The position numbers and the translations under genes are program-made. A stretch of 55,369 nt of DNA from a virus. Below are positions 26,593 through 48,293 of this stretch, piece after piece. Location: positions 1 to 55,369 of the IMG/VR virus record IMGVR_UViG_3300024273_001718. One strand, written 5' to 3'. The notes beneath the pieces were generated by a model. That model saw nothing but the letters and a program-made list of their open reading frames with translations, did no database searches and was not told the DNA's origin. How positions within the stretch are numbered: the stretch's first letter is position 1; every line of letters starts with the position of its first letter.

Positions 26593-27885
26593 TTATATTA
26601 ATTTGTACTTAATGATTTCAACATCATTAAATTTTGCAAGTTTTTTATCGTATGTACCTTCTCTAAAAATACCACCATGCATTGTTCCTTTAAATACTCC
26701 TTTACCATATACATAACAATCGCTTGCAACACAAGATCCATGTACATATGATGTGTCTAATTTACTTGAATTCAGCTGAGTACTTGAATAAAAGTTACAA
26801 TAGTGAATATCTGAACCATGAATATCACATCCATACATATCACATTCTGAGAATTCTCCTCTTAAGAAACATCCAACGAATTCATACCCATGTAAATCTA
26901 CACAATACTCTAGTTTTCCACCAGATACCTGTATTCTCCCACTATCTGAATCATAATTAATGTGTCCTTTTGATAGGGTACCATGTGTAAACAATTTCAT
27001 CACATGTTCTTTAACACTTGGCCAATAAAGATCTACTACCTTTGGGTTGTCATTTAAATCTACTGTAAATTTAACATGCTTCCAATTGTCTTTGATTGTT
27101 TTCCAATCCTTACGTGCGTCAATTATTCTTTGATTTTTAGAAATTATCTTCTTAAGTTCAATTGCATTCAATCCTGAAAATTCATGGTTATCTGTTGATT
27201 TCCATAATTGTAATATGAAGCTATCGACAAGATGTAAAATTTTAGTTGTTTTCTTTTCCCAATCAGCGCCACCAACATATCTAAACTCTAAATAGTTTTT
27301 ATGTCTCTTTTCGAAATTGATACCATAGTATTTAGTATCTGGGTAGATGAAGTTTTGTTGGTTGATATATTTACCATCAAAGAAATATGTGTCCTCTTTA
27401 GGTAAAACGAATTTGATTGATTTTGCGTATGCTGAATTCTCTCTCTTTGGAAAGAATTTAAAAACCTGCTCCTCGTTAAAATCTAGAATGAATTTAAGAG
27501 TATTCATCTTAGAGATTCTATATTTATTCTCTATTTTAGATTTGTCAAAGGAAATATTCAGGTGAATCGAGGAACGGTCATTAGTATATCCATTCTCTTC
27601 AATCCATTTACACACATCGATTATCATTAATCTTGCTGCAAAATATGGAAGAGCACCTGTAACAAGTTCAAGAAGCTTTGCACCTCCCGACATATCAGGT
27701 TCTATTTTAAATTCATCTTGAGTTACTTCAAAATCACTATGTGCCTTTATCTCAACATGTATCTTTTTGCCAAGAAGCTTTGCAATTTGATCTGCAGTTT
27801 CTTGAGCTGACAAATTTGAATAAAATTCAAATTCAACACCGACTAAGGCATTTTGCAAAATGTTTGCATCGTTTAGGTTATTCAT
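26593..27885 (-). CDS. Amidoligase-family enzyme with C-terminal repeat domain
   Basis: 430 residues. The N-terminal GVEFEFY (16-22) is the metal-binding ExE signature of the amidoligase (COOH-NH2 ligase) family. A DMSGGAKLLELVTG segment (64-77), an SIHLNISF strand (106-113, His108) and YLEFRYVGG (199-206, Glu200/Arg202) fit the remaining active-site blocks. Residues about 325-410 are imperfect short repeats rich in Gly, Cys and aromatic residues, like a pentapeptide or right-handed beta-helix domain. Members of this family join carboxyl and amino groups using ATP. Here it could modify cell-wall peptides or virion proteins; the substrate is unknown. It lies among structural genes and has a promoter hairpin overlapping its start codon. 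Confidence 0.7.
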   Translation of the reverse strand: MNNLNDANILQNALVGVEFEFYSNLSAQETADQIAKLLGKKIHVEIKAHSDFEVTQDEFKIEPDMSGGAKLLELVTGALPYFAARLMIIDVCKWIEENGYTNDRSSIHLNISFDKSKIENKYRISKMNTLKFILDFNEEQVFKFFPKRENSAYAKSIKFVLPKEDTYFFDGKYINQQNFIYPDTKYYGINFEKRHKNYLEFRYVGGADWEKKTTKILHLVDSFILQLWKSTDNHEFSGLNAIELKKIISKNQRIIDARKDWKTIKDNWKHVKFTVDLNDNPKVVDLYWPSVKEHVMKLFTHGTLSKGHINYDSDSGRIQVSGGKLEYCVDLHGYEFVGCFLRGEFSECDMYGCDIHGSDIHYCNFYSSTQLNSSKLDTSYVHGSCVASDCYVYGKGVFKGTMHGGIFREGTYDKKLAKFNDVEIIKYKLI

Positions 27886-27933
27886 TTACTATTAGATATA
27901 TTAACTTACGTTAGGTTATATATCCAAGTAAAT
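27884..27933 (-). promoter_or_regulatory. Promoter-containing hairpin covering the amidoligase start codon
   Basis: ATTTACT (27884-27890, overlapping the start codon) pairs with AGTAAAT (27927-27933). Inside, GATATATTAAC (27895-27905) pairs with GTTATATATC (27915-27924) with one bulge. On the minus strand the 5' arm contains the late-type motif GATATATAA (27916-27924). Read-through RNA would lock the start codon in a stem. Confidence 0.55.
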
Positions 27934-27935
27934 AA

Positions 27936-28739
27936 CTACATCATAGAATCCAGTTTAGTTTGTAGTTTTTTAATTTGTTTAGTCCAATCGACGATTGATT
28001 GTTCTTTCCCGGTAATGTTGATTCTTTTCCAACTTTCTATTTTTTTAGCAATACCATCTTCCATCTCTTGATTGTAATATGCCTCGTCATTGTTGTAATT
28101 TTTGGCAGCATCTCTCTTTATAATCTCTGACCATGTTGGCCATTCATACCAATCGTTTTTATCTTTTAATATTTGAATGATTTCACTATCTGTTGGTTTT
28201 GAATTCATCTTAACATCTTCTAATGCCTTTGTAATTCTGGCCTCATATTGTTTAATGTCATTGTTTAACTTTTCAGCCTTAGACATTTTTTTAATCTTGT
28301 CAGAATATTCTTTCGAAATCGTAGAAGCTCCAGTTTTAGGAATGCTTGTTTTTGTAATATATCTATAATGAAGTCTTTGGATATTGTGACCACCTGCATA
28401 AATAGCTTCAGTCGCAAAATTATATGCAACTCCATCTCTCTGGATTTGTGCATTTATTTCAATATTTCCTTTAGCACTTTTACTAACGTTTAAAGAAAGT
28501 AAAGAATCAGTTGGTTGTGTATAAGTTTCAACAGCTTTAACCATATCAAAGATTAGATTAAGTCTTGCAGATTCTCTGTCATACTTAGTAAATTCTTGGT
28601 TGAATGTTTTAACAAACCATGTTTCAGTAGCAGCAACCATTTCTAAAACAGTAGGTTCTAATGCATCCAAAATAACATTAACAATATTATTTTCCTTTGA
28701 TTCGTTTAAGAACTGTGAATATGTTTTAATTTTGCTCAT
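27936..28739 (-). CDS. Protein with a capsid-targeting-like N-terminus, unknown function
   Basis: 267 residues. MSKIKTYSQFLNESKE at the start has the KxYxxFLxE pattern of the T4 capsid-targeting sequence. The body mixes helices and strands; residues about 155-267 are strongly helical, Lys/Glu-rich and probably coiled coil (about 155-190 and 245-267). No catalytic motif is seen. If the N-terminus acts as it does in T4 internal proteins, the protein would be packaged in the head and injected with DNA. Upstream is a terminator/promoter block that separates it from the S1-like gene. Confidence 0.6.
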   Translation of the reverse strand: MSKIKTYSQFLNESKENNIVNVILDALEPTVLEMVAATETWFVKTFNQEFTKYDRESARLNLIFDMVKAVETYTQPTDSLLSLNVSKSAKGNIEINAQIQRDGVAYNFATEAIYAGGHNIQRLHYRYITKTSIPKTGASTISKEYSDKIKKMSKAEKLNNDIKQYEARITKALEDVKMNSKPTDSEIIQILKDKNDWYEWPTWSEIIKRDAAKNYNNDEAYYNQEMEDGIAKKIESWKRINITGKEQSIVDWTKQIKKLQTKLDSMM

Positions 28740-28780
28740 ACGTTATATATTTGTTTTTTTAATTATAATGTAAATATAAA

Positions 28781-28840
28781 CAAAAAAGCCCAAACAAAAA
28801 AATGTTTGGGCTATTATTTTTCAAAAAGTTATTAACAATT
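28781..28840 (-). terminator. Terminator of the S1-like gene plus conserved tail motif
   Basis: A 10 bp stem AGCCCAAACA/TGTTTGGGCT (28787-28796 and 28803-28812) with a loop of six A residues (plus strand) is followed on the minus strand by a T-run. The preceding sequence AATTGTTAATAACTTTT (minus strand) recurs at three other loci. A stretch like TTTATATTTACATTATAATT follows, which may be a promoter. Confidence 0.8.
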
Positions 28841-30029
28841 ATAGTTTTAAGAAAACTTTTCTTGTGTCAACTTCTATTCTTGTGATTTGTACAGTAATTG
28901 GACTGTTCTTTGTGAGTGAATCAATTTCTATACCCTCTGGCAATTCAGATATATGTAACAATCCTACAATACCATCTCCAATGTCTACGAATACACCATA
29001 ATCTTTCACGGACTTAATGGTACCAATAACTTCAGTTGGGAATGATTTGTACTTTCCTGCAATTTCTTTCCATGGATCTACAGTTTCAACAACATCCAAT
29101 TGAGTCAAAGTAATTTTAGTATCACTGATAATTTCTTTTACTTTGAATTCAATCTCATCACCGGGATTAATTTCTCTGGCTTTATGTTTTCTAGCCATTT
29201 CACTGGTTAAGTCATTAGCATAAATCATACCAGTTAAACATCCATCAAATTCAACGAATACTCCATATTTTGCAGAACCTGTAACATTTCCTTTTTTAGT
29301 TTCTCCAATAGAATTTCTAAGTTCTTCTACTTTACCAGGAATCATTGCCTGTAGGTATTTTCTATGTGAAACAATAACTGTTCCTCTTTCTGTCGAATAG
29401 CTCATAGGAACTACATACATTTGAGTGTTTAAGATAGATTCAAATTCTGCAAGTTTGTTAATTCCCGCAAGAGAACCTGGCATAAAACAATCCACTCCTT
29501 GTACATTTACGAAATACCCTCCGTTTGGAATCATTCCAGTCACAGTTCCGACGTATGCTGTTTTACCTTCTTCGATCGATTCTAAAATATCTCTAAGAAC
29601 TGCAGCTTTAATTCCAGCATCAACAGATCCTAAGATAAATCCTTTGTTTGTTCTGTCACCTGATACTTCAACAGATACCTCAGTACCTGGTACTAATTTT
29701 GCCTTTGAAATTGCTGTCTCCTTTGCCATATTAACATAAACCATTTCTTTGTGGCCAATATCAATTGAAGCCCATTCAACATCTACTGCATATACTATAC
29801 CGCTATGTGTTTCTCCAGGGTTAACCGAAAATACGTTTTGGGTTGTTGTGAACGCATTTTCCATTAGGTTGTAAAGTTCTTGAGCGTAGGGCTCTCTTGA
29901 ATAAACTTTGTGACCATTCTTTGTTTTTACATGAGGGTTTGGTTTTTTGTAAGCTGATGGACAATCCGCTAAGTGAGCATCCCAATCAAATCCTAATAAA
30001 CCTTCATTTGCAATTTGTTTTTTTGACAT
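28839..30029 (-). CDS. S1-like RNA-binding protein with four S1 domains
   Basis: 396 residues. Four S1-type OB folds can be traced at about 70-135, 155-226, 243-310 and 330-396; the third and fourth are clearest (GNVTGSAKYGVFVEFDG, GTIKSVKDYGVFVDIGDG). The first 65 residues are a unique region with many aromatic and Pro residues. Bacterial ribosomal protein S1 has up to six such domains and binds mRNA on the 30S subunit. In hosts lacking Shine-Dalgarno signals, S1-type proteins are likely to matter for choosing mRNAs, so this may favour phage mRNA. A free RNA-binding or exoribonuclease-associated protein is the alternative. The gene is bounded by its own terminator. Confidence 0.85.
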   Translation of the reverse strand: MSKKQIANEGLLGFDWDAHLADCPSAYKKPNPHVKTKNGHKVYSREPYAQELYNLMENAFTTTQNVFSVNPGETHSGIVYAVDVEWASIDIGHKEMVYVNMAKETAISKAKLVPGTEVSVEVSGDRTNKGFILGSVDAGIKAAVLRDILESIEEGKTAYVGTVTGMIPNGGYFVNVQGVDCFMPGSLAGINKLAEFESILNTQMYVVPMSYSTERGTVIVSHRKYLQAMIPGKVEELRNSIGETKKGNVTGSAKYGVFVEFDGCLTGMIYANDLTSEMARKHKAREINPGDEIEFKVKEIISDTKITLTQLDVVETVDPWKEIAGKYKSFPTEVIGTIKSVKDYGVFVDIGDGIVGLLHISELPEGIEIDSLTKNSPITVQITRIEVDTRKVFLKL

Positions 30030-30081
30030 TTTTTTTGTTTGTTAAAGTGTTAATAAATTATATGATTATATATATGTTTTT

Positions 30082-31704
30082 CTAGAATGTAAATGGACTA
30101 AATCCTATCATAGGAGTAACGGAAGTTCCTGCTGACAATTGGCCATTGTATATGAATTTTAAATCCTTTAAATGTTTTGAGCATGATACTGCAACTGCAG
30201 TTGCAACTGCTTTAACTGCAGTCTCAAGTGATGGATCTGTTTTAAACTGCTTGCCTGTATTCCATGCTCTTCTCAGGTCATCCGCTAGTCTTTGTTTATT
30301 ACCATATGATATTGGAATAAATGTACCAGGGGAGGGGATGTTACATGGTAATATTGGCGGTGCAGGGTTAAATGGCTGAGTGGATGTCGATATCCAATAT
30401 TTAATAATAGTATCTGCCATTATACAATATGCATCATTACCATTACAACCATCCGCTTGAGTCCTATTTGCGTCTGCAGTTTCATTGACCCATTGCCTCT
30501 TTAACGAATCGAACCTATCCCTCTCAACGATATATTGTATTTTTTTAGTATTAGATGCCTCACTGTCCTTTCTACGCAGATATTGGCCATATAATAGACC
30601 AGTTGGATCTAACAAATTATCCCTTTTATATTCGTTAAGACTTAAGTATTTGTTTTGTTGAGTATATACTAATGTTGTAATAAATGGTATTGTTAGCCAT
30701 GCAGGAATTCTATCAGGGTATGTTTTGCTTTCTTCTTGAAATATTCTACTGTTTAGATTTTCTCGGAACGTTGTACCATTGTCCATCCATAATATCACTT
30801 GATCCTTGACCTTCGATATAAACGTATCAGGTTTATTAATATCTATATTTTCTACCCATCTTCTAAATTCTATAGTCCCGTCATTTTGGCCCAACACTCT
30901 CTTAGCAACTGCTATTACTCTAGTGCCTTCATTCATTTCCGGTACAATTTGTCGTTTGGCATTTGATTTAATTACAATATCCCCAGGTACTCCGTCTGGC
31001 ATTATTACAATAGTGAGACTTTGATTAACATCCTTTAACTCTATTGTTCCAGTAGAATCTATTGCGCTATCAAAAATATATCTGTATTTTCCAGGTATCA
31101 CTGGGATCCTAACTTTAGAGACACCCTGTAAATCCGTGGTGGTCTTTAGTCGCACTCCATTTAATCTATAAGTAATTTCATACGGTGCAACCCCATCGCC
31201 TCCAGTTACCTTCAGGGTAACTTCTGATGGTACCTTCATGTTATCTGTATCATTATTGGAAGTAACTCCAATTTCTCCAAATAGATTGGTCTCCTCTACT
31301 ATATTTGGATTTGGACAAGTTGATGGAAAGAGCTGATAAAATAAAAAAGGTTCTATTTTGTTTTTATTTTCAAGAGTCCATTTCTCCATATCACATAGAG
31401 GGTCTAGATTTAAATCAATCTTTGGAAATGGTTCAAACATATCCGCATATATGGAATTTTCGAATTTATCCTCAAGCCTTGGTTCTGTTGATTTGTATAG
31501 TGTATCGAATGCAAGAGTAAAACCTACTTCAAGTATTTTTTTATCTCCAGGCGAATGTATGTTTCCATTTGGTATTTGGGCAGTTTTAATGGCTCTAAAA
31601 TATTCATTAGCAACGAACATACCGAAATCATTAGGCCCTGTAGAAGTTCTACTGAGCATTTTATTTGAAACGTTACTTATGAATATTGGCCACTGTGCAG
31701 GCAT
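30082..31704 (-). CDS. Virion protein with central Ig-like region
   Basis: 540 residues. The first 150 residues are mixed alpha/beta. About residues 178-225 form a beta-type segment (VPSEVTLKVTGGDGVAPYEITYRLNGV), like the Ig/PKD-type domains common in tail proteins. The C-terminal 200 residues are helical, with Cys pairs near 425-465. It follows the gp5-like gene downstream. An accessory tail or hub component is likely; no family is recognised. Confidence 0.65.
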   Translation of the reverse strand: MPAQWPIFISNVSNKMLSRTSTGPNDFGMFVANEYFRAIKTAQIPNGNIHSPGDKKILEVGFTLAFDTLYKSTEPRLEDKFENSIYADMFEPFPKIDLNLDPLCDMEKWTLENKNKIEPFLFYQLFPSTCPNPNIVEETNLFGEIGVTSNNDTDNMKVPSEVTLKVTGGDGVAPYEITYRLNGVRLKTTTDLQGVSKVRIPVIPGKYRYIFDSAIDSTGTIELKDVNQSLTIVIMPDGVPGDIVIKSNAKRQIVPEMNEGTRVIAVAKRVLGQNDGTIEFRRWVENIDINKPDTFISKVKDQVILWMDNGTTFRENLNSRIFQEESKTYPDRIPAWLTIPFITTLVYTQQNKYLSLNEYKRDNLLDPTGLLYGQYLRRKDSEASNTKKIQYIVERDRFDSLKRQWVNETADANRTQADGCNGNDAYCIMADTIIKYWISTSTQPFNPAPPILPCNIPSPGTFIPISYGNKQRLADDLRRAWNTGKQFKTDPSLETAVKAVATAVAVSCSKHLKDLKFIYNGQLSAGTSVTPMIGFSPFTF

Positions 31705-31724
31705 TTACTATATGTTTTATAGAA

Positions 31725-31733
31725 TTATATATC
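31725..31733 (-). promoter_or_regulatory. Late-type promoter motif
   Basis: GATATATAA on the minus strand, about 21 bases upstream of the 540-residue virion protein start. The intergenic region (31705-31787) also holds an AT palindrome around 31762-31779 (GAATATATATATATATTC) just after the gp5-like stop codon, which might end transcription or be only AT-rich spacer. Confidence 0.45.
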
Positions 31734-31787
31734 TTTATCTCAAAACGTTAACATGTCCTTTGAATATATATATATATTCTCTTTTAT

Positions 31788-32486
31788 TTATTTTCCAGTT
31801 TGCTGATATGGTAAATGTACTGGTGCCCATGGTGCAACTGGAACTCCACTAGGGCCAGCAGGTGTTGGATGGATATGTGTATTATATAATTCTTTGAAAG
31901 ATTCTAGAAACGTTTCTAAAGATTTACCTCTAACCGCAGGTTCCTTTTCATCTTCAGATCCTTCTCCTGTATTTGAAAGAAATATATTTCCAGCATCTAA
32001 AAATATCTTGTTATCAGATGATATTTTTATAATTCCATTTTCATCCAATTGTATGATTGGTCTTTCCTTTGCCCCAGATCCTCGTGTTATGACCAGTCCA
32101 TCCTCAGGGGAATGATATATTCGAATGTTACGTACTTCATCATATATTAATGAAACCACGTCATGGGCCGCAGCTGATGATTTTAGGACATCAGTTATTA
32201 GCGCTTTACTTTGATTAATTTGAAACCAATATTCAGGGTGATATATGTTACCATTGTCAAATCGAACAGCAACAACAGTCCCAATATTCGGAGGATTATG
32301 AGAACCAACAAAGTCACAATTCATAGGAGTTGCCCATGGAATTGCATCGTTTGGTAACTTATCAAATTTACCAAACACCTTAACACGACAACGACCCAAG
32401 AATTTTGGGTCAGCGTTATCAACAACCTCACCAATCCAGTGGGTTTCTCTAATATTATCTTTGTCTAATTCTTTATCTGTTGCCAT
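31788..32486 (-). CDS. 5: gp5-like baseplate hub/needle protein without lysozyme
   Basis: 232 residues. The N-terminal part (about 10-95) has the OB-fold pattern of gp5/gpV/VgrG (HWIGEVVDNADPKFLGRCRVKVFG, then IGTVVAVRFDNG). After it come short beta repeats (KISSDNKIFLDAGNIFLS) of the type that build the triple-stranded spike. Near the end THIHPTPAGPSGVPV carries a His-x-His pair, as in the metal-binding spike tip of P2 gpV. T4 gp5 has a lysozyme inserted between OB and needle; here that domain is missing, and a lysozyme is instead fused to the gp27-like hub two genes upstream. The role is the membrane-piercing device. Confidence 0.85.
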   Translation of the reverse strand: MATDKELDKDNIRETHWIGEVVDNADPKFLGRCRVKVFGKFDKLPNDAIPWATPMNCDFVGSHNPPNIGTVVAVRFDNGNIYHPEYWFQINQSKALITDVLKSSAAAHDVVSLIYDEVRNIRIYHSPEDGLVITRGSGAKERPIIQLDENGIIKISSDNKIFLDAGNIFLSNTGEGSEDEKEPAVRGKSLETFLESFKELYNTHIHPTPAGPSGVPVAPWAPVHLPYQQTGK

Positions 32487-35837: not shown

Positions 35838-36338
35838 TTAAATAGTTATTGTACCGTTTCCGATTGTTAGGTTTACTTCTCCATCTTTTAAAATGTTTGG
35901 AGGTAATATTTGTGAAGACCCATTTGCCTTCTGTGCAGCCTTTCTCTGTAAGTACTCAATTCGGCTAGCGTCCTTCACTGGAAGTCTTTTCGTATCAATG
36001 AATTGGTCTCTAATAGAGATTTCATCTGTTGATTTTTGTACCATTTTAACTGGTCTAATAACAGCAAGAACTCCATTGTTTTGAGGTATCTCTAAAACAT
36101 CTCCAATATTAATAATGAATGGATTTGATATATTATTCCATTTCAATATATAGTCAACGAAATTAGCATCTCTATAATATTTTAAAGATATTAAATCCAT
36201 TCTTACAATATCATCTGCAGTTACAATATGCTCAGCGATAACTTCAGTTCCCTCTACAAAAACAACAGTAGGTCTAGCGAATATAACTTTAGTTCCGTCA
36301 CTTGAGAGTGTCTTTTTTTCTAATGTATTAAATTTCAT
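35838..36338 (-). CDS. LysM-type baseplate protein, gp53-like
   Basis: 166 residues. Residues about 43-85 (MDLISLKYYRDANFVDYILKWNNISNPFIINIGDVLEIP, quoted here only in parts: DLISLKYY and IINIGDVLEIP) match the LysM-like fold of T4 gp53-type wedge proteins. The C-terminal half is helical and basic with a Gly/Asn-rich end. It lies between the hub and a tube-fold gene, overlaps the next start by one base, and probably holds wedges together through that fold. Confidence 0.7.
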   Translation of the reverse strand: MKFNTLEKKTLSSDGTKVIFARPTVVFVEGTEVIAEHIVTADDIVRMDLISLKYYRDANFVDYILKWNNISNPFIINIGDVLEIPQNNGVLAVIRPVKMVQKSTDEISIRDQFIDTKRLPVKDASRIEYLQRKAAQKANGSSQILPPNILKDGEVNLTIGNGTITI

Positions 36339-38140
36339 TATCCGTTACTTATTTTTCTAAAGACATTTATAAAGTCATCTTTCTTAGGTGTTCCACCATC
36401 TTTATTTCCATATGCACTTACATCAGATGTGTTATTAATATCGGCGCCATCATCAGGTTGTAGGTAAAATCTACCTCGACCTGCGTTAAACATGGATTCA
36501 ATCTCTGCCTTATCTCTCGGTCTTCCTGGCTTTAATGTAATTACAACTACCATTTTTTCAGGAAAATCCTGTAGCGCAGTAGCGCCTTCAAAGGTAATTT
36601 CACAATTTTCCATTGCTAAGTTACCACATACAATTATAGGATTCAATGGATTTCCTACAGTAACATGCCATTGACCAGTAGGATCTCCTGTTAAAAGAGC
36701 CGCGGCAGCTTGGCCTCCCTGTGGTGTGTTAAACATTTCCATTAAACTACCACCTATTAGGTTGTTTAGTAATTTATTATCTGCTAAATTTTTCCAATTC
36801 GCAGGATCCGCAACTCCTTTAAACATATTACCCATATCTGAGACAATAGATCCTAAAAATCCACCATAATCACCCGATTTAAGCTTAGCCAAATTTCCAA
36901 GTGGCCTTGCAACAGATCCATCTCCAATGTATCTAACGCTTCCTCCCCAAAATGGAGCATTATTATAAGTTAATGCAAGTATGTTTGCGAGTTGGTCTAA
37001 CATCATTACCTTCGGGTTAACTCCCTCAAAACTCTTAAGTTCGTATTCAAATTTAAGCGTGAACGCTTGTTCAAATTTAAGACCGCTTTCCCTTACTAAG
37101 GTATCTTTAATAACATTTAGTGGTCCAAATACATGATTAGGGTATGTGTCACTGAATGCGTCATAACCTGCATTTTGTGCAGAGGCATTTGATTCAACAG
37201 CACCCTTTCCCTTTGCAGCATTAGCAGCTGCTGATAAAAATTTACTATTGTTTACCATATTACCAAACTTACCAGAAGCACCTTTTGTTTGAGATTGCAA
37301 TGTCTGTACCTCTGCTGTGGCTGTTTTCCAATTATATCCATGTGAGAACTTTAATATCTCTGTAATTGAATTTCCTGGAGCTTCGCCAAGCCATGTAACA
37401 GCTCTTGCAATATCAGGTTGTTGTACCTCTTCTACTGTACCATCAGCCCCTAATTGTTTGGGTGTAATAATGTCGTCCGATACAGGATATGCAAATCTAC
37501 GAAGTGTTATTAATAAATTGTTTGGAATTTTACCATAATATTTCGTAAGAGCAAAGTCTGAATAATTATATCTATATCCATAATTACCTGCAACATTACC
37601 TGTTATTTCTATAATTTGAGTAACGGTTGGATTGACCAAACTCATTGGATCTATTTTTCGATATCTTCCAGTAGCAACTGTAAGACCATCTTTCGTAAGG
37701 TCCAATGGATTACCCCTGTAATTTATTAATGAATATTTGTTAAATGCAGAGTATGGTCTTGGGCCGATTGTAATTTTATTTGGATTTGTTTTGCCTGCTT
37801 GGGTAGATATATACGTCTCAGAGTCATGCTCTTTAGTGTAGTATTTAGACTCGTTTGTATTAATTATAGTAAATGGTTCGTCAGTTGCAACTGCTCTTGC
37901 AGCGGTCTGATCAGGTTTTTTTGGAGCCTTTATAACGTTACCTCCTTTTTTTCCTCCAGTATTAACGCCATCTGGATTTGCTCCATCTATTGTATTTGGG
38001 TCATATCCTGTAATGCTCTTTGTGGCACTGATAAATCCTTTACCTAATCCTGTAGTTTTAGCATAGTCAAAGCCTTCCTTCGCTTTTGCCTTTGTAGCAT
38101 CTGCTAATTTATCAAAATAACTTTTTTCAATTTCTGCCAT
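36338..38140 (-). CDS. Large tail-tube-fold protein (gp48/gp54 type)
   Basis: 600 residues. The N-terminal 100 residues are low complexity (Lys, Ala, Gly). A tube-fold pattern is split: IPNNLLITLRRFAYPV near 205 and a C-terminal block, GQWHVTVGNPLNPIIVCGN to MVVVITLKPGRPRD (about 490-545), separated by an Ala/Gly/Asn-rich insert and a long helical part. This long form occurs in phages that put a tube initiator at the hub. Its start is in a promoter-bearing hairpin. Exact correspondence to gp48 or gp54 is not resolved. Confidence 0.6.
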   Translation of the reverse strand: MAEIEKSYFDKLADATKAKAKEGFDYAKTTGLGKGFISATKSITGYDPNTIDGANPDGVNTGGKKGGNVIKAPKKPDQTAARAVATDEPFTIINTNESKYYTKEHDSETYISTQAGKTNPNKITIGPRPYSAFNKYSLINYRGNPLDLTKDGLTVATGRYRKIDPMSLVNPTVTQIIEITGNVAGNYGYRYNYSDFALTKYYGKIPNNLLITLRRFAYPVSDDIITPKQLGADGTVEEVQQPDIARAVTWLGEAPGNSITEILKFSHGYNWKTATAEVQTLQSQTKGASGKFGNMVNNSKFLSAAANAAKGKGAVESNASAQNAGYDAFSDTYPNHVFGPLNVIKDTLVRESGLKFEQAFTLKFEYELKSFEGVNPKVMMLDQLANILALTYNNAPFWGGSVRYIGDGSVARPLGNLAKLKSGDYGGFLGSIVSDMGNMFKGVADPANWKNLADNKLLNNLIGGSLMEMFNTPQGGQAAAALLTGDPTGQWHVTVGNPLNPIIVCGNLAMENCEITFEGATALQDFPEKMVVVITLKPGRPRDKAEIESMFNAGRGRFYLQPDDGADINNTSDVSAYGNKDGGTPKKDDFINVFRKISNG

Positions 38141-38179
38141 TACGTATTAGATATATTTGTTTTGTTATATATCCACGTA
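38141..38179 (-). promoter_or_regulatory. Promoter-containing hairpin at the start of the tube-fold gene
   Basis: TACGT (38141-38145) pairs with ACGTA (38175-38179), and GATATAT (38150-38156) pairs with ATATATC (38167-38173). The late-type motif GATATATAA (minus strand, 38165-38173) is in the 5' arm, and the 3' arm abuts the ATG at 38140. Confidence 0.5.
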
Positions 38180-38187
38180 TCTATTTG

Positions 38188-40451: not shown

Positions 40452-40655
40452 TTAATCCATCTGATTGAACTCATGTTTGGTTTCATTATTATAGTATTTA
40501 TGTTGAAATGAATCAATAAAATCAACTGACCTACTGGGACCCATAAATGCATCTATGGATTTAACCCATCTCCAATAAAAATCCCTGCTTCCATTCTCTT
40601 TAAGATATTCTACCAATACCTTTTTTTCTGGCAATATTCTTTTATTAAAACTCAT
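40452..40655 (-). CDS. Small hypothetical protein, 67 residues
   Basis: It begins MSFNKRILPEKKVLVEYL and is rich in aromatic residues (Tyr, Trp, Phe). An ATG three codons earlier (40664) is possible; both overlap the end of the dCMP deaminase gene, by 11 or 20 bases. It has no recognisable motif. Confidence 0.5.
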   Translation of the reverse strand: MSFNKRILPEKKVLVEYLKENGSRDFYWRWVKSIDAFMGPSRSVDFIDSFQHKYYNNETKHEFNQMD

Positions 40656-41160
40656 TCCATGCATTTACCTGGTTAACAATAATTCCTGCAGTTTCCAACA
40701 ATTCAACACCACTCATATCTCTATAATCTTCAGTGTAATACACTGTAGAAATTCCTGCCTGTGTGATTAATTTTGCACAATCAAAACATGGGCAGGTTGT
40801 TGTATATAATGTGGCACCTTCACAACTCATTGTTGATTTGGCGACTTTCATAATAGCATTTGATTCAGCATGCAAAACTTCACGTTTCGTAATTGCATCT
40901 CTTTTAGTACAACATCCATTTTCACACGTGTACCCATGCTCCTCGGTTAACTCTAGGGCAAAGTCTGGATTTTCATAATATTTAATATCATCTTCCTCGC
41001 ATTTGTTGTCAAACCCATGTGGCATGCCATTATATCCAAATGATATTACTTGATTGTCTTTCACAATTACACATCCAACCTTTCTTCGGTTAGCGTAACT
41101 GAGTTTTGCGAACTGATATGCGGTTTGCATATAAATTATTTCTATCGGAATTCTAGGCAT
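40645..41160 (-). CDS. cd: dCMP deaminase
   Basis: 171 residues (T4 cd has 193). The zinc-dependent deaminase signature is present: HAESN (His97, Glu99) and PCxxC (Cys125, Cys128). Additional Cys/His residues between 50 and 85 suit the second structural zinc site known in T4 dCMP deaminase. It converts dCMP to dUMP, feeding dTMP synthesis for phage DNA. It starts directly after a perfect 15 bp inverted repeat holding a promoter-like motif. Confidence 0.92.
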   Translation of the reverse strand: MPRIPIEIIYMQTAYQFAKLSYANRRKVGCVIVKDNQVISFGYNGMPHGFDNKCEEDDIKYYENPDFALELTEEHGYTCENGCCTKRDAITKREVLHAESNAIMKVAKSTMSCEGATLYTTTCPCFDCAKLITQAGISTVYYTEDYRDMSGVELLETAGIIVNQVNAWNEF

Positions 41161-41162
41161 AA

Positions 41163-41202
41163 AAAAAGTCTATATATGTTTAGTATTATATATAGACTTT
41201 TT
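41163..41202 (-). promoter_or_regulatory. Perfect 15 bp inverted repeat with embedded promoter motif
   Basis: AAAAAGTCTATATAT (41163-41177) and ATATATAGACTTTTT (41188-41202) are exact inverted repeats with a ten-base loop, ending two bases before the dCMP deaminase ATG. The minus strand carries TATATAATACTAAAC across the loop. With flanking A- and T-runs on both sides the structure could also end transcription of the previous gene. Confidence 0.6.
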
Positions 41203-41221
41203 ATTTAGTTTATTCTCTGGA

Positions 41222-41701: not shown

Positions 41702-41734
41702 AATTTTATTTTTTTTTATATGATTACTTGAATT

Positions 41735-41743: not shown

Positions 41744-41749
41744 TCTATC

Positions 41750-42061
41750 TTAGTTCATATATTCAAAACTAGAGGGTAGTATGTGTTTCTGTAATTTTAG
41801 TACCTTTATTATTAGTGCAACTACAACACCACCTGGCATGATTGCGATAGTAGTAAGTCCTACTGTTTTTAGAACATCTCGCATTTGATTTGCAACCCAT
41901 TCCTTTTCAATATCACTCATTTTTCTCTCGTTAAACATGTGTTTACATATCATATTGAATGCAGTTTTTGTCTCATCACTCTCATTCTTTAATGCACCAA
42001 TAAATTTTCTAAAGTGTGCCATAAAGTCATCTAAATATGACTGGCTAATGTTTATTTTCAT
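41750..42061 (-). CDS. LETM1-like membrane protein
   Basis: 103 residues. The C-terminal two-thirds match the LETM1-type pattern of mitochondrial and bacterial proteins: MSDIEKEWVANQMRDVLKTVG, then a hydrophobic IMPGGVVVALIIKVL stretch and the terminal ILPSSF. LETM1 proteins are linked to membrane ion transport and to ribosome contact in mitochondria. Here the protein is reduced to that core, so membrane association or ribosome binding is possible. It overlaps the next upstream gene by four bases. The family match is by eye. Confidence 0.55.
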   Translation of the reverse strand: MKINISQSYLDDFMAHFRKFIGALKNESDETKTAFNMICKHMFNERKMSDIEKEWVANQMRDVLKTVGLTTIAIMPGGVVVALIIKVLKLQKHILPSSFEYMN

Positions 42062-43040: not shown

Positions 43041-43960
43041 TAACTATATATCATTGAAAATTCTTTATGGTACTTGATTAGGGCTAGTTCCTTCTTTTTT
43101 GCCTCTATCTCAATATCTAGATCCATTCCATATGTTTCAATAAATTCATATAGATAATCTGCATGTGCTCTTAGGATTACTGTATTATCCTCGTGTAGTT
43201 TCTTGGAGGATGAGTAGTGGCATAGTTGACGAATACCCTTTGGCCATGTAGTTGCACACAATTCCAGTGCATCTTTTTCTGGCATAGAATCCTCATAACA
43301 CCAATGGTGAAAGAAGTCAAAGGTAATTGGAGTGCCACATAGCTTGTAAATTTCGTATAGGTCGCTTACACTATATTGACTTGCTTTATCGTCATTCTCT
43401 AAAACTAATCGTGAGCTTGCACATTCTGGAAGCAATTTAAAGTTTTCTGCAAATCTTGCAATCGCAGATTCCTTGTCGCCATAGGTTCCACCTACATGGA
43501 TATTCATTGCAGCATAATGAGTTCTTGGTAAGCCCATTAAATCCATTACCTTTCCATGCTGAGTTAATTCCCACACAGCATCGTTGACAACTTTAGGATT
43601 TGGACTTGCAAGAATATTAAAAGGACCTGGATGGAATGTAAGTCTTTGACCTACTTTGGTTGCATAATCACCTGCCGTTTTTAACAATGATTTGATTGTA
43701 TTGTAGTTAGGCAATTCCTCAATATCATATTCTGAATTCCATGGAAACATACTAGAGGACATACGGTACATTGTAACTCCATTTGCATTATTCCATTTAA
43801 GAATTTCGATCATGTCTCTGAGGTTAGCTTCCGCCAACTCACCTGCATATTTAATGCCCTTTGCTTGAAAGGTTTTTTTAATCATGCTTCTACCTATCTT
43901 AATACCTTTTTGTTTGTCCAATGTTAAATTGATACAACAGTAACCGTAATTTGCTCCCAT
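43040..43960 (-). CDS. uvsE: UV-damage endonuclease UvsE
   Basis: 306 residues. The TIM-barrel UvdE/UvsE family pattern is clear: GYCCINL at the start, ILKWNNANGVTMYRMSSSMFPW, LTFHPGPFNIL, LVLENDDK and ITFDFFHHW, each contributing metal-binding residues. The enzyme nicks DNA 5' to pyrimidine dimers to begin repair. Some phages carry it in place of the T4 DenV glycosylase, which is not seen in this window. The gene overlaps its neighbour by one base and is co-transcribed with nucleotide and repair functions. Confidence 0.9.
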   Translation of the reverse strand: MGANYGYCCINLTLDKQKGIKIGRSMIKKTFQAKGIKYAGELAEANLRDMIEILKWNNANGVTMYRMSSSMFPWNSEYDIEELPNYNTIKSLLKTAGDYATKVGQRLTFHPGPFNILASPNPKVVNDAVWELTQHGKVMDLMGLPRTHYAAMNIHVGGTYGDKESAIARFAENFKLLPECASSRLVLENDDKASQYSVSDLYEIYKLCGTPITFDFFHHWCYEDSMPEKDALELCATTWPKGIRQLCHYSSSKKLHEDNTVILRAHADYLYEFIETYGMDLDIEIEAKKKELALIKYHKEFSMIYS

Positions 43961-43961
43961 A

Positions 43962-44198
43962 TTATTTTATATCTAATTCTTTCTTAATGTTTAAAAATAT
44001 TCTCTCAGCATTACATGCTTCTTCCAGCGTAAATACATCTAAATCCTGAAATAGTAAACCACCATCTGTATTGACAAATACAATATTGTCAATTTGTTCA
44101 ACAGAGTCAACGCGATACACTGTATAGTCACCTACTAATATAACATGTGATGCGTTTAGTATTCTTAACTTTCTTTCTTGAAACGAGATCAATCCCAT
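43962..44198 (-). CDS. Small hypothetical protein, 78 residues
   Basis: It begins MGLISFQERKLRIL and is mixed alpha/beta without membrane segments. It overlaps the gene upstream by ten bases, suggesting coupling. No family is recognised. Confidence 0.55.
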   Translation of the reverse strand: MGLISFQERKLRILNASHVILVGDYTVYRVDSVEQIDNIVFVNTDGGLLFQDLDVFTLEEACNAERIFLNIKKELDIK

Positions 44199-44584
44199 TC
44201 TTTCTCAAATTTATACCAATGATCTGCACTTGCACAATCACGAAGTGCTTCCAATATAAGTATGTCCATTTCAAAACCGCTTAATGAATTTGTAAATGCT
44301 TCGATAATTCCTTCTAACACATAAGAATCAAACGCCTTGCCATCTCCATGATATTCATTAATAGTAGCCTCTGTAATTGCGCTACACAGACGATCCGCAA
44401 CTCTTTCATTATCACTAAATCTATTTCCTGGATAATAGTCATCATTTCCTGGTAGCATTTCCATGATTTTATCAGTTGAATTTCTCATTCTAAATAGAGA
44501 GATTGCAGTTGTGATAAATGGTCTTACATTATTAGCTGGACTCATCATTCCTATTCCGTTACATTTAATATCTGATACTTTCAT
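44189..44584 (-). CDS. Hypothetical protein, 131 residues
   Basis: The frame reaches 44638, but the ATG at 44584 (MKVSDIKCNGIGMMS) avoids overlap with the preceding gene and leaves a ten-base gap. The protein is helical with acidic stretches and ends in a Trp/Tyr/Glu-rich segment. No motif is recognised. Confidence 0.55.
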   Translation of the reverse strand: MKVSDIKCNGIGMMSPANNVRPFITTAISLFRMRNSTDKIMEMLPGNDDYYPGNRFSDNERVADRLCSAITEATINEYHGDGKAFDSYVLEGIIEAFTNSLSGFEMDILILEALRDCASADHWYKFEKEWD

Positions 44585-44594
44585 TTTATATTGA

Positions 44595-44864
44595 TTAAAG
44601 GGTTGTTTGAATTTTTGGGTAGTGATTACATGTATCATAAACTTTCATTACACGTTCTTCTAATTTAGTTGGTAAATCTAAAGCATATAATTGAACGTTC
44701 TGGTATAAATATCCATCGAACATTCCATATAACATATTTTCCAAGTGGAAAACATTTTCGTTTCCATCTGATCTATCATCATATCGAATATCCTTAATAA
44801 GGCTTAAGATTTCAAATCTTGTTTCTTCTGTCATGTTTGAGTGTCTGTCGAAATTTGTGTACAT
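44595..44864 (-). CDS. Hypothetical protein, 89 residues
   Basis: Starts MYTNFDRHSNMTEETRFEIL, acidic, mostly helical. It is the first gene of a run that ends with uvsE and has a possible promoter/terminator-like block upstream. No family is recognised. Confidence 0.55.
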   Translation of the reverse strand: MYTNFDRHSNMTEETRFEILSLIKDIRYDDRSDGNENVFHLENMLYGMFDGYLYQNVQLYALDLPTKLEERVMKVYDTCNHYPKIQTTL

Positions 44865-44939
44865 TTTGTTTGTTTTAATTATAGTATAAATATAACTATA
44901 AACTTTGATATAAAAAAAAAATTAGTATATTATTTTCGG

Positions 44940-44956
44940 AAAGTTATTAACAATTT
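44940..44956 (-). repeat. Conserved tail motif without hairpin
   Basis: AAAGTTATTAACAATTT (plus strand) matches the tail of the terminator modules at 28824-28840, 45244-45260 and 50121-50137, but here the hairpin is replaced by an A-run and a TATATTATT tract. It overlaps the stop codon of the small protein at 44955-45155. Confidence 0.55.
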
Positions 44957-45155
44957 AGAATATGCGTTTATGAACTTCATCGTATACGAAATCATAATTC
45001 TCATTTAATACATCTAATTCTTCGTCTGTCATTTCACGCCCATCATAAAATGCAGAGCTAATAAATGCATCACAAAAATCAGGATAATCTCTAGTGTCTA
45101 TTCCATCCACGTCAATGTCACTAATTTTACTGTAGTCTAATTCTAAATTTACCAT
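44955..45155 (-). CDS. Small conserved-type acidic protein, 66 residues
   Basis: Very acidic, with IDTRDYPDFCDAFISSA followed by a TDEELDVLNENYDF segment, a pattern I recognise as recurring in small phage and bacterial proteins of unknown function. It stands alone between two copies of the conserved tail motif. No function is assigned. Confidence 0.7.
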   Translation of the reverse strand: MVNLELDYSKISDIDVDGIDTRDYPDFCDAFISSAFYDGREMTDEELDVLNENYDFVYDEVHKRIF

Positions 45156-45202
45156 ATTATTATATTTTAATGTTGTTATTTAATTACTATACAAATATAA
45201 AC

Positions 45203-45260
45203 AAAAAAAGCCAAACAAAAAATGTTTGGCTAATTATTTTTTAAAAAGTTATTAACAATT
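45203..45260 (-). terminator. Terminator of the endolysin gene plus conserved tail motif
   Basis: GCCAAACA (45210-45217) and TGTTTGGC (45223-45230) form an 8 bp stem with a loop of five A residues on the plus strand, followed on the minus strand by a T-run. The preceding AATTGTTAATAACTTTTT begins three bases after the GH19 gene. Confidence 0.8.
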
Positions 45261-45261
45261 C

Positions 45262-45873
45262 TTATTTTACATAAGTAGCATACTTATATGTTTTAACCTT
45301 TCTATCTTCCAATCCATTAGTACCACCATTAATTCTTTTAGTAAGTACTAATATTGCAGCATCATTGATTCCTTTGTCACAAATATCCCATAATTTATTC
45401 TTGTCAAAGAAAAACATAGCTGACTCAAATGAATAAGTGGTTGCTACCAAATCTGGATTTTCCATAATTTCTGGTTTATTTAGATATTTAGCGAATGCTT
45501 GATAGTTTGCCTTTCCAGTTAATTGAAGAGCTCCTCTACCTCTGAATTTCCAACCATCCCCAGAAGCTTCATCGCCATTACCCATTCTTGATGCATAAAC
45601 TCTATTTGCAATCCTTTCAGGTTGACGCGCATAAGACTCTTCTAAATTACCTGGAAAATATTTTCCAAAAGTATCCTGTAATCCTCGTGTTGAATAGTTT
45701 AGGTTTTCAGTGAATAGTTTATAATCACAGGTTTCGTGTGCGGTTTGTGCAAAAAAATGTGCAGCTCTGATTGGTGTTAATTTAAAATAGGCAATTGCAG
45801 CCTTCATGGTACCTGGGCCAAATGATCCATCAACGGTAACTCCTACCCTTTCTTGTAATGATTTTAAACTCAT
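45262..45873 (-). CDS. GH19 endolysin with short N-terminal wall-binding region
   Basis: 203 residues. The first 25 (SLKSLQERVGVTVDGSFGPGT) look like a shortened peptidoglycan-binding motif. The GH19 domain has AHETCDY (catalytic Glu47), GRGALQLTGKANYQAF and NGGTNGLEDR, closely paralleling the GH19 domain of the hub protein at 33723-35834. There is no signal peptide, so release would need a holin or spanin system. The likely role is host lysis. It overlaps the next gene by four bases. Confidence 0.85.
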   Translation of the reverse strand: MSLKSLQERVGVTVDGSFGPGTMKAAIAYFKLTPIRAAHFFAQTAHETCDYKLFTENLNYSTRGLQDTFGKYFPGNLEESYARQPERIANRVYASRMGNGDEASGDGWKFRGRGALQLTGKANYQAFAKYLNKPEIMENPDLVATTYSFESAMFFFDKNKLWDICDKGINDAAILVLTKRINGGTNGLEDRKVKTYKYATYVK

Positions 45874-46220
45874 AATTTATATATTACTTTAAATACCTTT
45901 ACATTCTTGGAAGCTGCCATGTCGATAGTCATTCTAGTTCCTTTGGAAACACCATCCCAAAACGCAATAATAATATCGGAATTTTCAACGATTTTTATAT
46001 TTCTAATTGCAGCAGCACCCTTGCCAATAGACCAGTCTGGTTTAAAAATAATAGTATCTATGTTGTTTAGATTTGCATATTGTTCTGCTAGAGAATCTGC
46101 TCCTTTTGCTCCACCACTAATTATTGAAGATATTTGAGTTCTGTTAGATATTCTATTTAAAGTTTTTTCTAGTAATTCATAGTCCATAAAGGTTCTACTG
46201 CCGATGACACCTATTCTCAT
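45870..46220 (-). CDS. SLOG-fold (YspA-like) protein
   Basis: 116 residues. MRIGVIGSRTFMDY at the start and SGGAKGADSLAEQYA (36-50) are the nucleotide-binding signatures of the SLOG superfamily, near DprA and YspA-type proteins. Such domains sense or make nucleotide-derived signals and often occur with defence systems. Between an endolysin and a membrane protein, its role is unclear: a lysis-timing sensor and an anti-defence factor are both possible, neither supported by more than context. Confidence 0.75.
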   Translation of the reverse strand: MRIGVIGSRTFMDYELLEKTLNRISNRTQISSIISGGAKGADSLAEQYANLNNIDTIIFKPDWSIGKGAAAIRNIKIVENSDIIIAFWDGVSKGTRMTIDMAASKNVKVFKVIYKL

Positions 46221-46565
46221 TTATTTCCAGAATAACTGAACGCATATCAGGACTAAAGCTAATGAGAGTGAAACAATTGTCTTTGTATTTAACGATTCTC
46301 CCATCATGAAATATGTTAGTAAACCGAATGACAACATTCCCATTGCAAATCCTATGAATCTTCCTGGCCATATCTGGCCATCATAATATTCGGCAATGAG
46401 TCGAGTAGCAACTATAAACATATATGATATTGTAGAACCTCCGATCGCTGCAATCAAGATTGGATTCCTTTTAAACCATGGCCAGATAAATTGTCCGTTT
46501 GTTTGAAACCATATCATTGATTGTCCAAGCAAGAACAATAATATTCCATAGATTAAACCTCTCAA
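46221..46565 (-). CDS. Small integral membrane protein, four helices
   Basis: 114 residues with four likely membrane helices (about 3-20, 34-55, 70-87 and 93-112). The only start compatible with the sequence length is a TTG whose codon overlaps the RNase HII stop by four bases (TTGA); an ATG lies 16 codons further in. It resembles small transporter-like or holin-like proteins. Close spacing with the endolysin and SLOG gene raises a lysis role, unproven. Confidence 0.6.
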   Translation of the reverse strand: MRGLIYGILLFLLGQSMIWFQTNGQFIWPWFKRNPILIAAIGGSTISYMFIVATRLIAEYYDGQIWPGRFIGFAMGMLSFGLLTYFMMGESLNTKTIVSLSLALVLICVQLFWK

Positions 46566-47194
46566 AACAATGTTCCCGTTTCAGTTAATAAATGTGATAT
46601 AAAACTTGGTCGATGCACTTCAGTTGCTCCGATTTCTTTGATCGCTTTGATATGAGCTGCGGTTCCATATCCTTTGTTAGAGTTCCATCCATATCCTGGA
46701 ATTTGAATATCTAACTCCTTCATCATTGCATCTCTTTCGGTTTTGGCAAGAATACTTGCAGCCGCAATTGATGTATATTTGTTATCTCCACCAATTACTG
46801 TCTCAAACGGAATTCCTTCAAATCCATGAAATTGGTCTCCATCAATTAGGATAAAATCAAATGAATGTGTCTTATTAACTTCAACTAGACATTGATTCAT
46901 TCCCTGTAGGGTTGCTCGCAAAATATTGGTTGATTCGATTTGGTCGGGATAGATGTGAACAATGCTATATGCAATTACATTGTCTAATACAATTTGTCTT
47001 GCATCTTTTCGTTGCTGCTCATTAAGTAGTTTAGAATCCTTTACCAATTCATGTTGAAATCCGTATGGCATGATACATGATGCAACAGTCACTGGCCCAG
47101 CTAAAGCACCGCGACCTGCCTCATCAACTCCAATTTCTATAGTGTCCTCTACTCCTGTAAAACTTGATTTAAGTAGTATGTGTCTTGTTTCCAT
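46562..47194 (-). CDS. rnhB: Ribonuclease HII
   Basis: 210 residues. The signature GVDEAGRGALAGPV (22-35, Asp24/Glu25) is diagnostic. ILIDGD and the ASILAKTERD segment supply the further active-site residues. The enzyme removes RNA from RNA/DNA hybrids, as for primers. T4 instead uses a flap-nuclease-type RNase H, so this is a substitution. Its start codon lies in a 13 bp inverted repeat. Confidence 0.92.
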   Translation of the reverse strand: METRHILLKSSFTGVEDTIEIGVDEAGRGALAGPVTVASCIMPYGFQHELVKDSKLLNEQQRKDARQIVLDNVIAYSIVHIYPDQIESTNILRATLQGMNQCLVEVNKTHSFDFILIDGDQFHGFEGIPFETVIGGDNKYTSIAAASILAKTERDAMMKELDIQIPGYGWNSNKGYGTAAHIKAIKEIGATEVHRPSFISHLLTETGTLF

Positions 47195-47229
47195 CTATTA
47201 TATGTTTATAGATATTATATAATAGATGG
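47191..47229 (-). promoter_or_regulatory. 13 bp inverted repeat covering the RNase HII start codon
   Basis: CCATCTATTATAT (47191-47203) and ATATAATAGATGG (47217-47229) are perfect inverted repeats; the first contains the start codon. On the minus strand TATTATATAATATCTATAAAC spans the 5' arm and loop and resembles the late-type motif. Readthrough from the phoH gene would produce RNA with a hidden start codon. Confidence 0.6.
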
Positions 47230-47254
47230 ACTTAAAGTTTCAGTTATTTATATA

Positions 47255-47962
47255 TTAAAGATTATTTTCATCCTTCCATTTATCATAAATGTCTACAACT
47301 TCTTGTAGAATTTTAGCTCTTACAATGTCCTTTGATGTGAATTCATGAACCCCAACCCCACGTACTTTACTAAAAATTTTAATAAACTTATGAAATGATA
47401 CTTTGTCCTTAGCTATATCATATTGACTAATATCTCCGGTGACTAATACCTTTGAATTTTTACCCATCCTTGTTATGAATAAAATTAATGCATGCCATTG
47501 TGCATTTTGTGCCTCATCTAAAATCATAAACGCATCGTCGAATGTGTCACCTCGCATAAACGCAAGTGGTTTGAATTCTATTAATCCATGGTGAATTAAA
47601 CTTTCAGTTAATTCATGTCCAACAATCTTTTTAAAGTTGGAAATATATGATTGCATATATGGATCTATTTTATCTGCAATATCACCAGGTAGAAATCCAA
47701 GTTTTTCACCAGATTCCTGTATTGGCTTACATAAAATTATCTTTTTAACTTTTTTATCAGCAAGTAAACTTAGTGAAGTGTAACATGCTGTAAATGTTTT
47801 TGAGGTTCCGGCAGGGCCAGAGCAAAATGTTATATCGTTTTTAAATATTTGGTTGACGTATTCCCTTTGATTATTTCTTAAATTAACATGTTTAATGTTT
47901 TCATCTTTGACTGACATTTTTTTAATGTGCTGTGTTGGTTCTGAACTCGTCTTCTTTTGCAT
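47255..47962 (-). CDS. phoH: PhoH-like ATPase
   Basis: 235 residues. The Walker A motif is GPAGTSKT (49-56) and Walker B is LDEAQN (148-153), with the PhoH-type KPIQESGEKLGFLPGD after the first. PhoH proteins are RNA helicase-like ATPases common in phages. The first 25 residues are a Lys/Ser-rich extension. It is the first gene after the hypothetical gene at 47977 and precedes RNase HII. Confidence 0.92.
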   Translation of the reverse strand: MQKKTSSEPTQHIKKMSVKDENIKHVNLRNNQREYVNQIFKNDITFCSGPAGTSKTFTACYTSLSLLADKKVKKIILCKPIQESGEKLGFLPGDIADKIDPYMQSYISNFKKIVGHELTESLIHHGLIEFKPLAFMRGDTFDDAFMILDEAQNAQWHALILFITRMGKNSKVLVTGDISQYDIAKDKVSFHKFIKIFSKVRGVGVHEFTSKDIVRAKILQEVVDIYDKWKDENNL

Positions 47963-47976
47963 ATAATTAAATATAT

Positions 47977-48270
47977 TTAGTCGCCTGCCATTATGACAAG
48001 CTCCTTTAACTTTTTAAGTGTATCACACTTCTCGTACTCCTCTAGCTCTACAAAATAATTTATAAGAAGATCTATAAACATGCTTCTCTGTCCTACACCA
48101 TGTGGAATGTCTATTGTATTTTTGCTGTCTTGATATACAATAAATCGATTAACAGTTTTTGTAAAATTTCTTGTTATTATGTAATAGCTGGATCTCATTA
48201 GGGAGTCTCTTTCCTCTCTCGTAACTTCTTCCATCCTTGTTAAATCTTTTTGTAATAGGGTAATACCCAT
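47977..48270 (-). CDS. Small protein with UVR-like C-terminus (copy 1)
   Basis: 97 residues. The C-terminus YFVELEEYEKCDTLKKLKELV is nearly the same as in the proteins at 48517-48768 and 49758-50042. The EEYEKCxxLKxI pattern resembles UVR motifs in UvrB, UvrC, ClpC and McsA, which mediate protein contacts. The first 70 residues differ from the other two and are mixed alpha/beta. The start codon lies in an inverted repeat. A role in a shared complex is inferred. Confidence 0.6.
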   Translation of the reverse strand: MGITLLQKDLTRMEEVTREERDSLMRSSYYIITRNFTKTVNRFIVYQDSKNTIDIPHGVGQRSMFIDLLINYFVELEEYEKCDTLKKLKELVIMAGD

Positions 48271-48293
48271 TCTTATATTATATATTAAGATGG
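48267..48293 (-). promoter_or_regulatory. Promoter motif within an inverted repeat at a UVR-like gene start
   Basis: CCATTCTTA (48267-48275, containing the start codon) pairs with TAAGATGG (48286-48293) apart from one bulged T. The minus strand has AATATATAATA in the loop, a close variant of the late-type motif. Confidence 0.45.

Follow-up and report, generated by a model that had tools for sequence, protein, structure and literature searches.

The window analysed here is a whole IMG/VR virus record of 55,369 bases (IMGVR_UViG_3300024273_001718), the coding of which lies nearly all on the minus strand: in open reading frames (ORFs) of at least 100 amino acids, 50,271 coding bases are found on this strand against 1,890 on the plus strand. 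The host is presumably a member of the Bacteroidota, and one window protein, from the tail region, has a weak likeness to proteins of Prevotella, Tenacibaculum, Flavobacterium, Chryseobacterium and Sphingomonas phages. Directly upstream of four genes, coding for an amidoligase, a tail protein, RNase HII and a dCMP deaminase, a promoter motif is embedded in an inverted repeat that ends at or near the start codon, as follows.

27882-27935, minus strand: putative start-codon lock (amidoligase gene, 26593-27885), with 5' arm 27935-27918 and a bulged main 3' arm, 27901-27882, that covers the ATG (27885-27883)
27916-27924, minus strand: GATATATAA late-type promoter box of the amidoligase gene, inside the 5' arm
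38141-38179, minus strand: putative start-codon lock (tail protein gene, 36338-38140), with 5' arm 38179-38167 and 3' arm 38156-38141, the latter stopping one base before the ATG
38165-38173, minus strand: GATATATAA late-type promoter box of the tail protein gene, inside the 5' arm
47190-47230, minus strand: putative start-codon lock (RNase HII gene, 46562-47194), with 5' arm 47230-47217 and 3' arm 47203-47190, the latter spanning the ATG (47194-47192) and two bases beyond it
47215-47241, minus strand: bipartite promoter GAAACT-N14-TATATAA of the RNase HII gene, passing through the 5' arm
41163-41202, minus strand: hairpin resembling a terminator, upstream of the dCMP deaminase gene (40645-41160), with 5' arm 41202-41188, 3' arm 41177-41163 and a T-run up to the ATG
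41186-41212, minus strand: bipartite promoter TAAACT-N14-TATATAA of the dCMP deaminase gene, running into the terminator-like hairpin

The initial annotation had proposed six such hairpins, together with a comparison of their folding with shuffled controls. When each site was set against 200 dinucleotide-preserving shuffles, the four listed above were significant (z between -3.4 and -6.4) while the other two, at 1243-1282 (z +0.37) and 48267-48293 (z +0.21), folded no better than shuffled sequence. In a second test, the box and the start codon were held and the flanks alone were shuffled (box-fixed test). The dCMP deaminase site (41155-41210) reached z -6.37 with none of 200 shuffles as good, and z -6.6 in the box-fixed test; the corresponding values were -5.63, 0/200 and -7.0 for RNase HII (47182-47235), -3.73, 2/200 and -3.9 for the amidoligase (27876-27940), and -3.37, 1/200 and -3.5 for the tail protein (38132-38185). 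Among the 14 window promoters, four have p<=0.006 with flanks shuffled. The 3' arm had been said to cover or touch the start codon everywhere; a helix over or beside the AUG is indeed found for RNase HII, the amidoligase and the tail protein, but at 41160 the 3' arm passes into a run of seven T adjoining the ATG, and does not itself pair with the start codon. Rfam gave no match to a known RNA family at gathering scores, whether in the window, in L322 or in L296.

The embedded boxes are genuine elements, as had been claimed. The GATATATAA box occurs nine times on the coding strand of the window and never on the opposite strand, and 129 times against 3 over eight contigs, the window being counted as one of them. 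The claim that all boxes are late promoters is not supported, since before 47194 and 41160 the box forms the -10 part of a bipartite promoter, [GT]AAAC[ACT]-N14-T[AG]TATAA, which is present 57 times on the coding strands of the eight contigs and once on the opposite strands. At spacings of 11, 12, 13, 15, 16 and 17, the same motif is found 2, 1, 1, 8, 3 and 0 times on coding strands.

Pairing across orthologs

A first protein scan yielded nine related loci, and three scans added 200 (80, 80 and 40), the relatives used being the best 80 of 221 for the amidoligase and the best 80 of 111 for the tail protein. After merging identical upstreams, 80 amidoligase loci gave 33 distinct sequences, 78 tail loci gave 38 (the truncated L150 and L163 being excluded) and 40 RNase HII loci gave 31 (L227, devoid of ATG, being excluded); for the dCMP deaminase, 31 loci had 23 distinct starts. 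In the swap test, the 5' side up to the assumed transcript start was paired with the remainder up to the start codon, or into the coding sequence for RNase HII, and own pairs were compared with pairs exchanged among orthologs. Own arms paired better than swapped ones for RNase HII (-13.2 versus -6.9 kcal/mol), the amidoligase (-11.1 versus -8.9) and the tail protein (-9.7 versus -7.1), with 0/2000 permutations reaching the observed value in each case. Within the window, matched arms likewise paired better than swapped ones in all 5000 permutations, the result being weaker in the relative G004 alone (46/5000). Against box-fixed shuffles, 21/31 RNase HII, 22/33 amidoligase and 22/38 tail upstreams had p<0.05.

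For RNase HII, the pairing partner lies in the coding sequence itself. Complementarity to the start of the coding sequence was 22.0, versus 12.5 in shuffled and 14.4 in swapped sequences, and the first codons of many orthologs are complementary to the 5' arm, whatever these codons are, as in L210, L211, L213, L228, L237 and L242, where the arm matches the AUG and the following codons although the latter vary. Between L213 and L211, a synonymous serine codon differs (TCA/TCG) and the facing 5'-arm base changes to match. The ungapped 3' arm overlaps the ATG in 14/17 hairpins; in the RNase HII alignment (A5), the outer arms shift register.

Predicted accessibility goes in the same direction. The unpaired probability of the start region was 0.16 in the read-through RNA versus 0.80 in the gene's own RNA for RNase HII (20/31 evaluable), 0.38 versus 0.72 for the amidoligase (32/33) and 0.39 versus 0.69 for the tail protein (38/38). 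In the predicted read-through folds, the start codon is paired in 19/20 RNase HII, 26/32 amidoligase, 26/38 tail and 5/11 dCMP deaminase sequences. Over late promoters as a class, predicted openness was 0.31 in read-through and 0.64 in own RNA for the 19 with a significant hairpin, compared to 0.57 and 0.66 for the 71 without one.

The dCMP deaminase site is of another kind. An intrinsic (rho-independent) terminator consists of a stable stem directly followed by a T-run, and a stem with T-run precedes this gene in 22/23 distinct ortholog upstreams, L246 being the one without; the stem is AT-rich in the window and contains more G and C in several relatives. In alignment A4 (22 rows, L246, which has no hairpin, and L273 being omitted and the window added), AAACT and TATAA are invariant at a single fixed spacing, and the promoter therefore runs through the stem. 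The 14-pair helix is paired in 93.0% of cells in these 22 sequences versus 84.7% in shuffles, with both sides changed in six pairs and a covariation of 0.335; the corresponding value is 0.170 in shuffles (0/500) and does not exceed 0.203 on sliding. Overlap of the ungapped 3' arm with the ATG is seen in 0/11 hairpins. By its sequence, this hairpin looks like an intrinsic terminator with a promoter inside rather than a start-codon lock; it resembles known terminators by its stem and T-run before the gene, and differs from them in that the promoter passes through the stem, with the assumed transcript start between the arms. In G003 to G008, a separate terminator-like stem is followed by the promoter region, so that fused and separate forms both exist. 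No report of promoters inside phage terminators was found in open-licence PubMed Central.

Proposed mechanism and alternatives

Taken together, the favoured explanation, to which we give a probability of about 0.75, is that a few genes carry start-codon locks with embedded promoters, the dCMP deaminase having a terminator version of the same layout. The promoter core would sit in the 5' arm or loop, and the 3' arm would cover or approach the start codon. Read-through RNA coming from an upstream promoter, whose existence we infer along with the transcript starts, would hold both arms, fold, hide the start codon (and, for RNase HII, the first codons too) and be poorly translated. RNA begun at the embedded promoter would start past the 5' arm, could not fold in this way and would be translated. 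Each gene would thereby be tied to its own promoter, of the GATATATAA late type for the amidoligase and the tail protein and of the bipartite type, [GT]AAAC-N14-TRTATAA, for RNase HII. For the dCMP deaminase, the same layout would act one step earlier, the intrinsic terminator halting upstream RNA while RNA started inside it would lack the 5' arm. We would lay even odds on a broader, joint proposition: that promoter-in-hairpin is a general design, combining translation lock and terminator and using two promoter classes, with the fate of an RNA set by its origin, and that in some RNase HII orthologs, such as L228, with its box end 5 nt from the ATG, the gene's own RNA would have the AUG as its very start, which would place the 3' arm of the lock entirely in coding sequence.

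The repeats could instead be palindromic DNA operators or bidirectional late promoters, with a dimeric regulator or the polymerase reading a symmetric box. In favour of this, the amidoligase core GGATATATAAC-CTAACTTAAGTTAATATATCC is conserved and close to symmetric, and a box within a stem recurs on the opposite strand. However, the arms vary between genes and orthologs while pairing is retained, and the RNase HII pairing partner is coding sequence. Furthermore, the mismatches in the best ungapped stems comprise 31 coding-strand G.T versus 6 A.C (12 plus-oriented rows being the whole dCMP contribution), compared to a G.T share of 0.444 expected from the letters; the binomial value of 1e-6 holds for independent sites, which related sequences are not. 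Such a preference for G.U argues for pairing in RNA, as a DNA operator or cruciform would not show it, and reading at the DNA level thus appears improbable. An equally improbable alternative is that the hairpins serve in RNA processing or in stabilising 5' ends, or are all terminators, and that start codons are not hidden. The dCMP deaminase hairpin with its T-run fits this proposal, but in the window no T-run follows the stem of the RNase HII, amidoligase and tail hairpins, and the RNase HII 3' arm extends into codons. As to chance palindromes around an AT-rich box in AT-rich sequence, they do account for the site at 1243-1282 and the local pairing at 48267-48293. For the four strong sites, chance is contradicted by folding that outdoes composition-matched shuffles and by compensatory change, which composition does not produce, so that as a general explanation it is very improbable.

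Several observations weigh against start-codon locks with embedded promoters. No significant hairpin (p>=0.05) is found in 10/31 RNase HII, 11/33 amidoligase and 16/38 tail upstreams, and amidoligase loci L084, L087 and L091 keep the box and have no such hairpin. The ungapped 3' arm overlaps the ATG in 12/31 amidoligase and 13/34 tail hairpins, the rest mostly ending 1-15 nt before it. When restricted to positions -8..+13, complementarity of the tail and amidoligase sequences shows no excess over shuffled ones, and 16 and 325 of 2000 swaps, respectively, reach the observed mean. RNAalifold returned no consensus structure for all 33 amidoligase sequences (A6); in a restricted alignment (A7), the outer arms shift register. 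The swap test is not corrected for relatedness, and the transcript start used is an assumed one, about 6 nt past the box. The 5' arm lies wholly upstream of this assumed start in 80/93 hairpins chosen irrespective of it, a geometry imposed in part by the position of the box within the hairpin. Finally, most promoters have no hairpin: for intergenic GATATATA[ACT] or bipartite promoters over the eight contigs, the excess at p<0.05 is slight (34/192 versus 12/86 control boxes, which lie within genes or on the opposite strand).

At p<=0.005, 14/192 of these promoters qualify versus 1/86 control boxes, and for intergenic [AT]ATATATAA boxes the counts are 2/64 at p<=0.005 and 4/64 at p<0.05. Since a minority of promoters carry such hairpins, the promoter hairpin is a device of particular genes and not the phage-wide switch proposed at the outset. 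One of these genes, in the relative G009, codes for a protein of 186 aa with a match to a homing endonuclease family (E 1.3e-8). The same relative has two further strong promoter hairpins before genes without family match (loci L282/L284), one at 147501 with arms of about 16 bases (z -5.0) and one at 194681 with an arm inside the coding sequence (z -9.2). The amidoligases of four huge-phage records (L333-L336, 31-41% identity) show no comparable start hairpin. A conserved AACTTAAGT follows the amidoligase late box (about 27904-27915 in the window), also in lineages without hairpin arms.

Further sites and promoter classes

Three weaker sites of the window complete the list.

48230-48294, minus strand: candidate long-range lock; UCCAUCUU (48294-48287) pairing with 48237-48230 over the start at 48234, with the box AATATATAA (48278-48286) between the arms
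14265-14306, minus strand: candidate hairpin around a GATATATAA box (14272-14280), arms 14306-14297 and 14274-14265, before a 1488-aa gene (9782-14248)
1243-1282, minus strand: sixth site of the initial annotation; promoter present, hairpin unsupported

The gene listed at 48270 very probably starts at 48234, since 17/17 aligned sequences (the window strain G001 and 16 relatives) have an ATG in frame there or no more than one codon away. In the window, the long-range pairing there is not significant alone (z -1.17); in 4/16 relatives (L338, L339, L340 and L343), CCATCT beside the box pairs with AGATGG at this start in the predicted fold. The local pairing initially proposed there was rejected (48255-48300, 113/200 shuffles as good), as was the hairpin at 1243-1282 (1232-1290, 123/200 shuffles as good, box-fixed p 0.166), which is not evident in the relatives shown, though gene and promoter are. 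The 14265-14306 candidate has z -1.76, with 12/200 shuffles as good and a box-fixed p of 0.048. Other window starts gave z -2.0 (41701), -1.8 (14248) and +0.6 to +1.4 (31704, 988, 30029, 54978 and 8413).

The late promoters of T4 have the consensus TATAAATA and are recognised through gp55. The late-type promoters of this lineage are alike in being one short AT-rich element upstream of structural genes, and a gp55-like sigma (phrog_234) was found in 8/8 relatives searched (E 6.5e-9 to 5e-13). They differ by their consensus, GATATATAA; the T4 box was rejected as late box here, with 14 copies in the window versus 13.0 expected by chance. Phrog_12791 matched 0/8 contigs, and no control gave a match either. 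On the window's minus strand, the bipartite promoter lies at 41212, 47241, 1300, 1064 and 27, and the genes preceded code for a gp32-like single-stranded DNA-binding protein, RNase HII, the dCMP deaminase and a 59-aa product, because of which this class may correspond to earlier, middle-like promoters. Nine of 20 gp32 loci were usable, and 5/9 have the motif; the gp32 leader of the window does not fold (z +1.4, 200 dinucleotide shuffles).

Further promoter observations were made. That of the 59-aa gene (1063-1242), at 1274-1300 on the minus strand, joins a GAAAC element with a full GATATATAA box and may be readable by both promoter systems. In G004, the bipartite -10 box ends -1 to 7 nt from the ATG at 163754, 161251, 136406, 173891 and 92000, a proximity that suggests leaderless messages. 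A T-rich stretch followed by TTTATATTTRYATWRTAATTAAA is repeated upstream of window positions 28739, 44864, 45155 and 50042, with a terminator-like stem in 3/4 copies, and is probably another promoter class. At 2166-2300 (minus strand), GATATATAA is followed by two inverted repeats with a tRNA-T-loop-like GGTTCGAAACC before the gene at 2166; a tRNA was rejected there, ARAGORN finding none in the window. Late-type boxes lie beside a GCAGCGCTGCT repeat in G011 (128471) and G012 (86024) with no ORF start nearby, the next downstream gene in G011 beginning about 120 bases further on. Apart from promoters, the window is matched at 100% identity by G001 and G002 from 26576 upwards, while their proteins below 25730 are only 36-85% identical, a drop that points to recombination in the tail region (window 25.4-26.6 kb).

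Comparison with T4 and significance

In the passages of PMC3014915 and PMC2988022 that treat them, start-site hairpins with an embedded late promoter are described for T4 e, soc, 49, I-TevI and others, for segB and for Aeh1 mobE: the initiation region is hidden in long transcripts, late transcripts begun within the structure are translated, and a 100-fold reduction is stated for gene e. Structures like that of gene e were already noted in close T4 relatives, according to a passage of the T4 review. Compared with the hairpins so described, those of the window are alike in that a late-type promoter lies within or beside the 5' strand of a structure over the initiation region, in that long transcripts would fold and short ones not, and in the presence of a homing endonuclease among the genes (here in G009). 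In contrast, the Shine-Dalgarno core is absent at 58/58 window starts (versus 9/30 hand-picked T4 starts that have it), and it is therefore the AUG and first codons that would be hidden instead. The genes also differ, being RNase HII, amidoligase and tail protein, as do the second, bipartite promoter class and the terminator version. S1 RNA-binding domains in a phage protein at 28839-30029 are of interest for translation without Shine-Dalgarno sites.

As a positive control, the same statistic was applied to hand-picked T4 genes, with a box in range at 19/44 starts. It recovered I-TevII (p 0.002), segB (0.004), genes 4 and 51 (0.006 each), e (0.008), segE (0.014) and gene 26 (0.018), with I-TevIII at 0.078; soc was missed (0.874), and 49, I-TevI and 25 have no box in range. 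The four sites of the window score like known T4 sites or better. The parallel with gene e drawn initially is well supported for RNase HII, the amidoligase and the tail protein, through arms that change together, the excess of G.T over A.C, predicted openness and the T4 control, and is not supported for the terminator-like dCMP deaminase hairpin and the two sites that fold no better than shuffles. The principle is that of T4; the novelty lies in the lineage, which is devoid of Shine-Dalgarno sites, in the genes concerned, in a second class of promoter and in the placing of a promoter within a terminator. No report of the device in this lineage, with this gene set or promoter class, was found in open-licence PubMed Central.

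Two promoter motifs are gained for a lineage for which no mapped transcripts were found in the open-licence literature, and a promoter inside a terminator is a compact part of about 50 bases that could serve both to insulate a gene and to start it. The compensatory change would show that pairing itself is under selection. If true, the proposed mechanism would extend the T4 principle of control by transcript origin to a widespread environmental phage lineage that has no Shine-Dalgarno sites.

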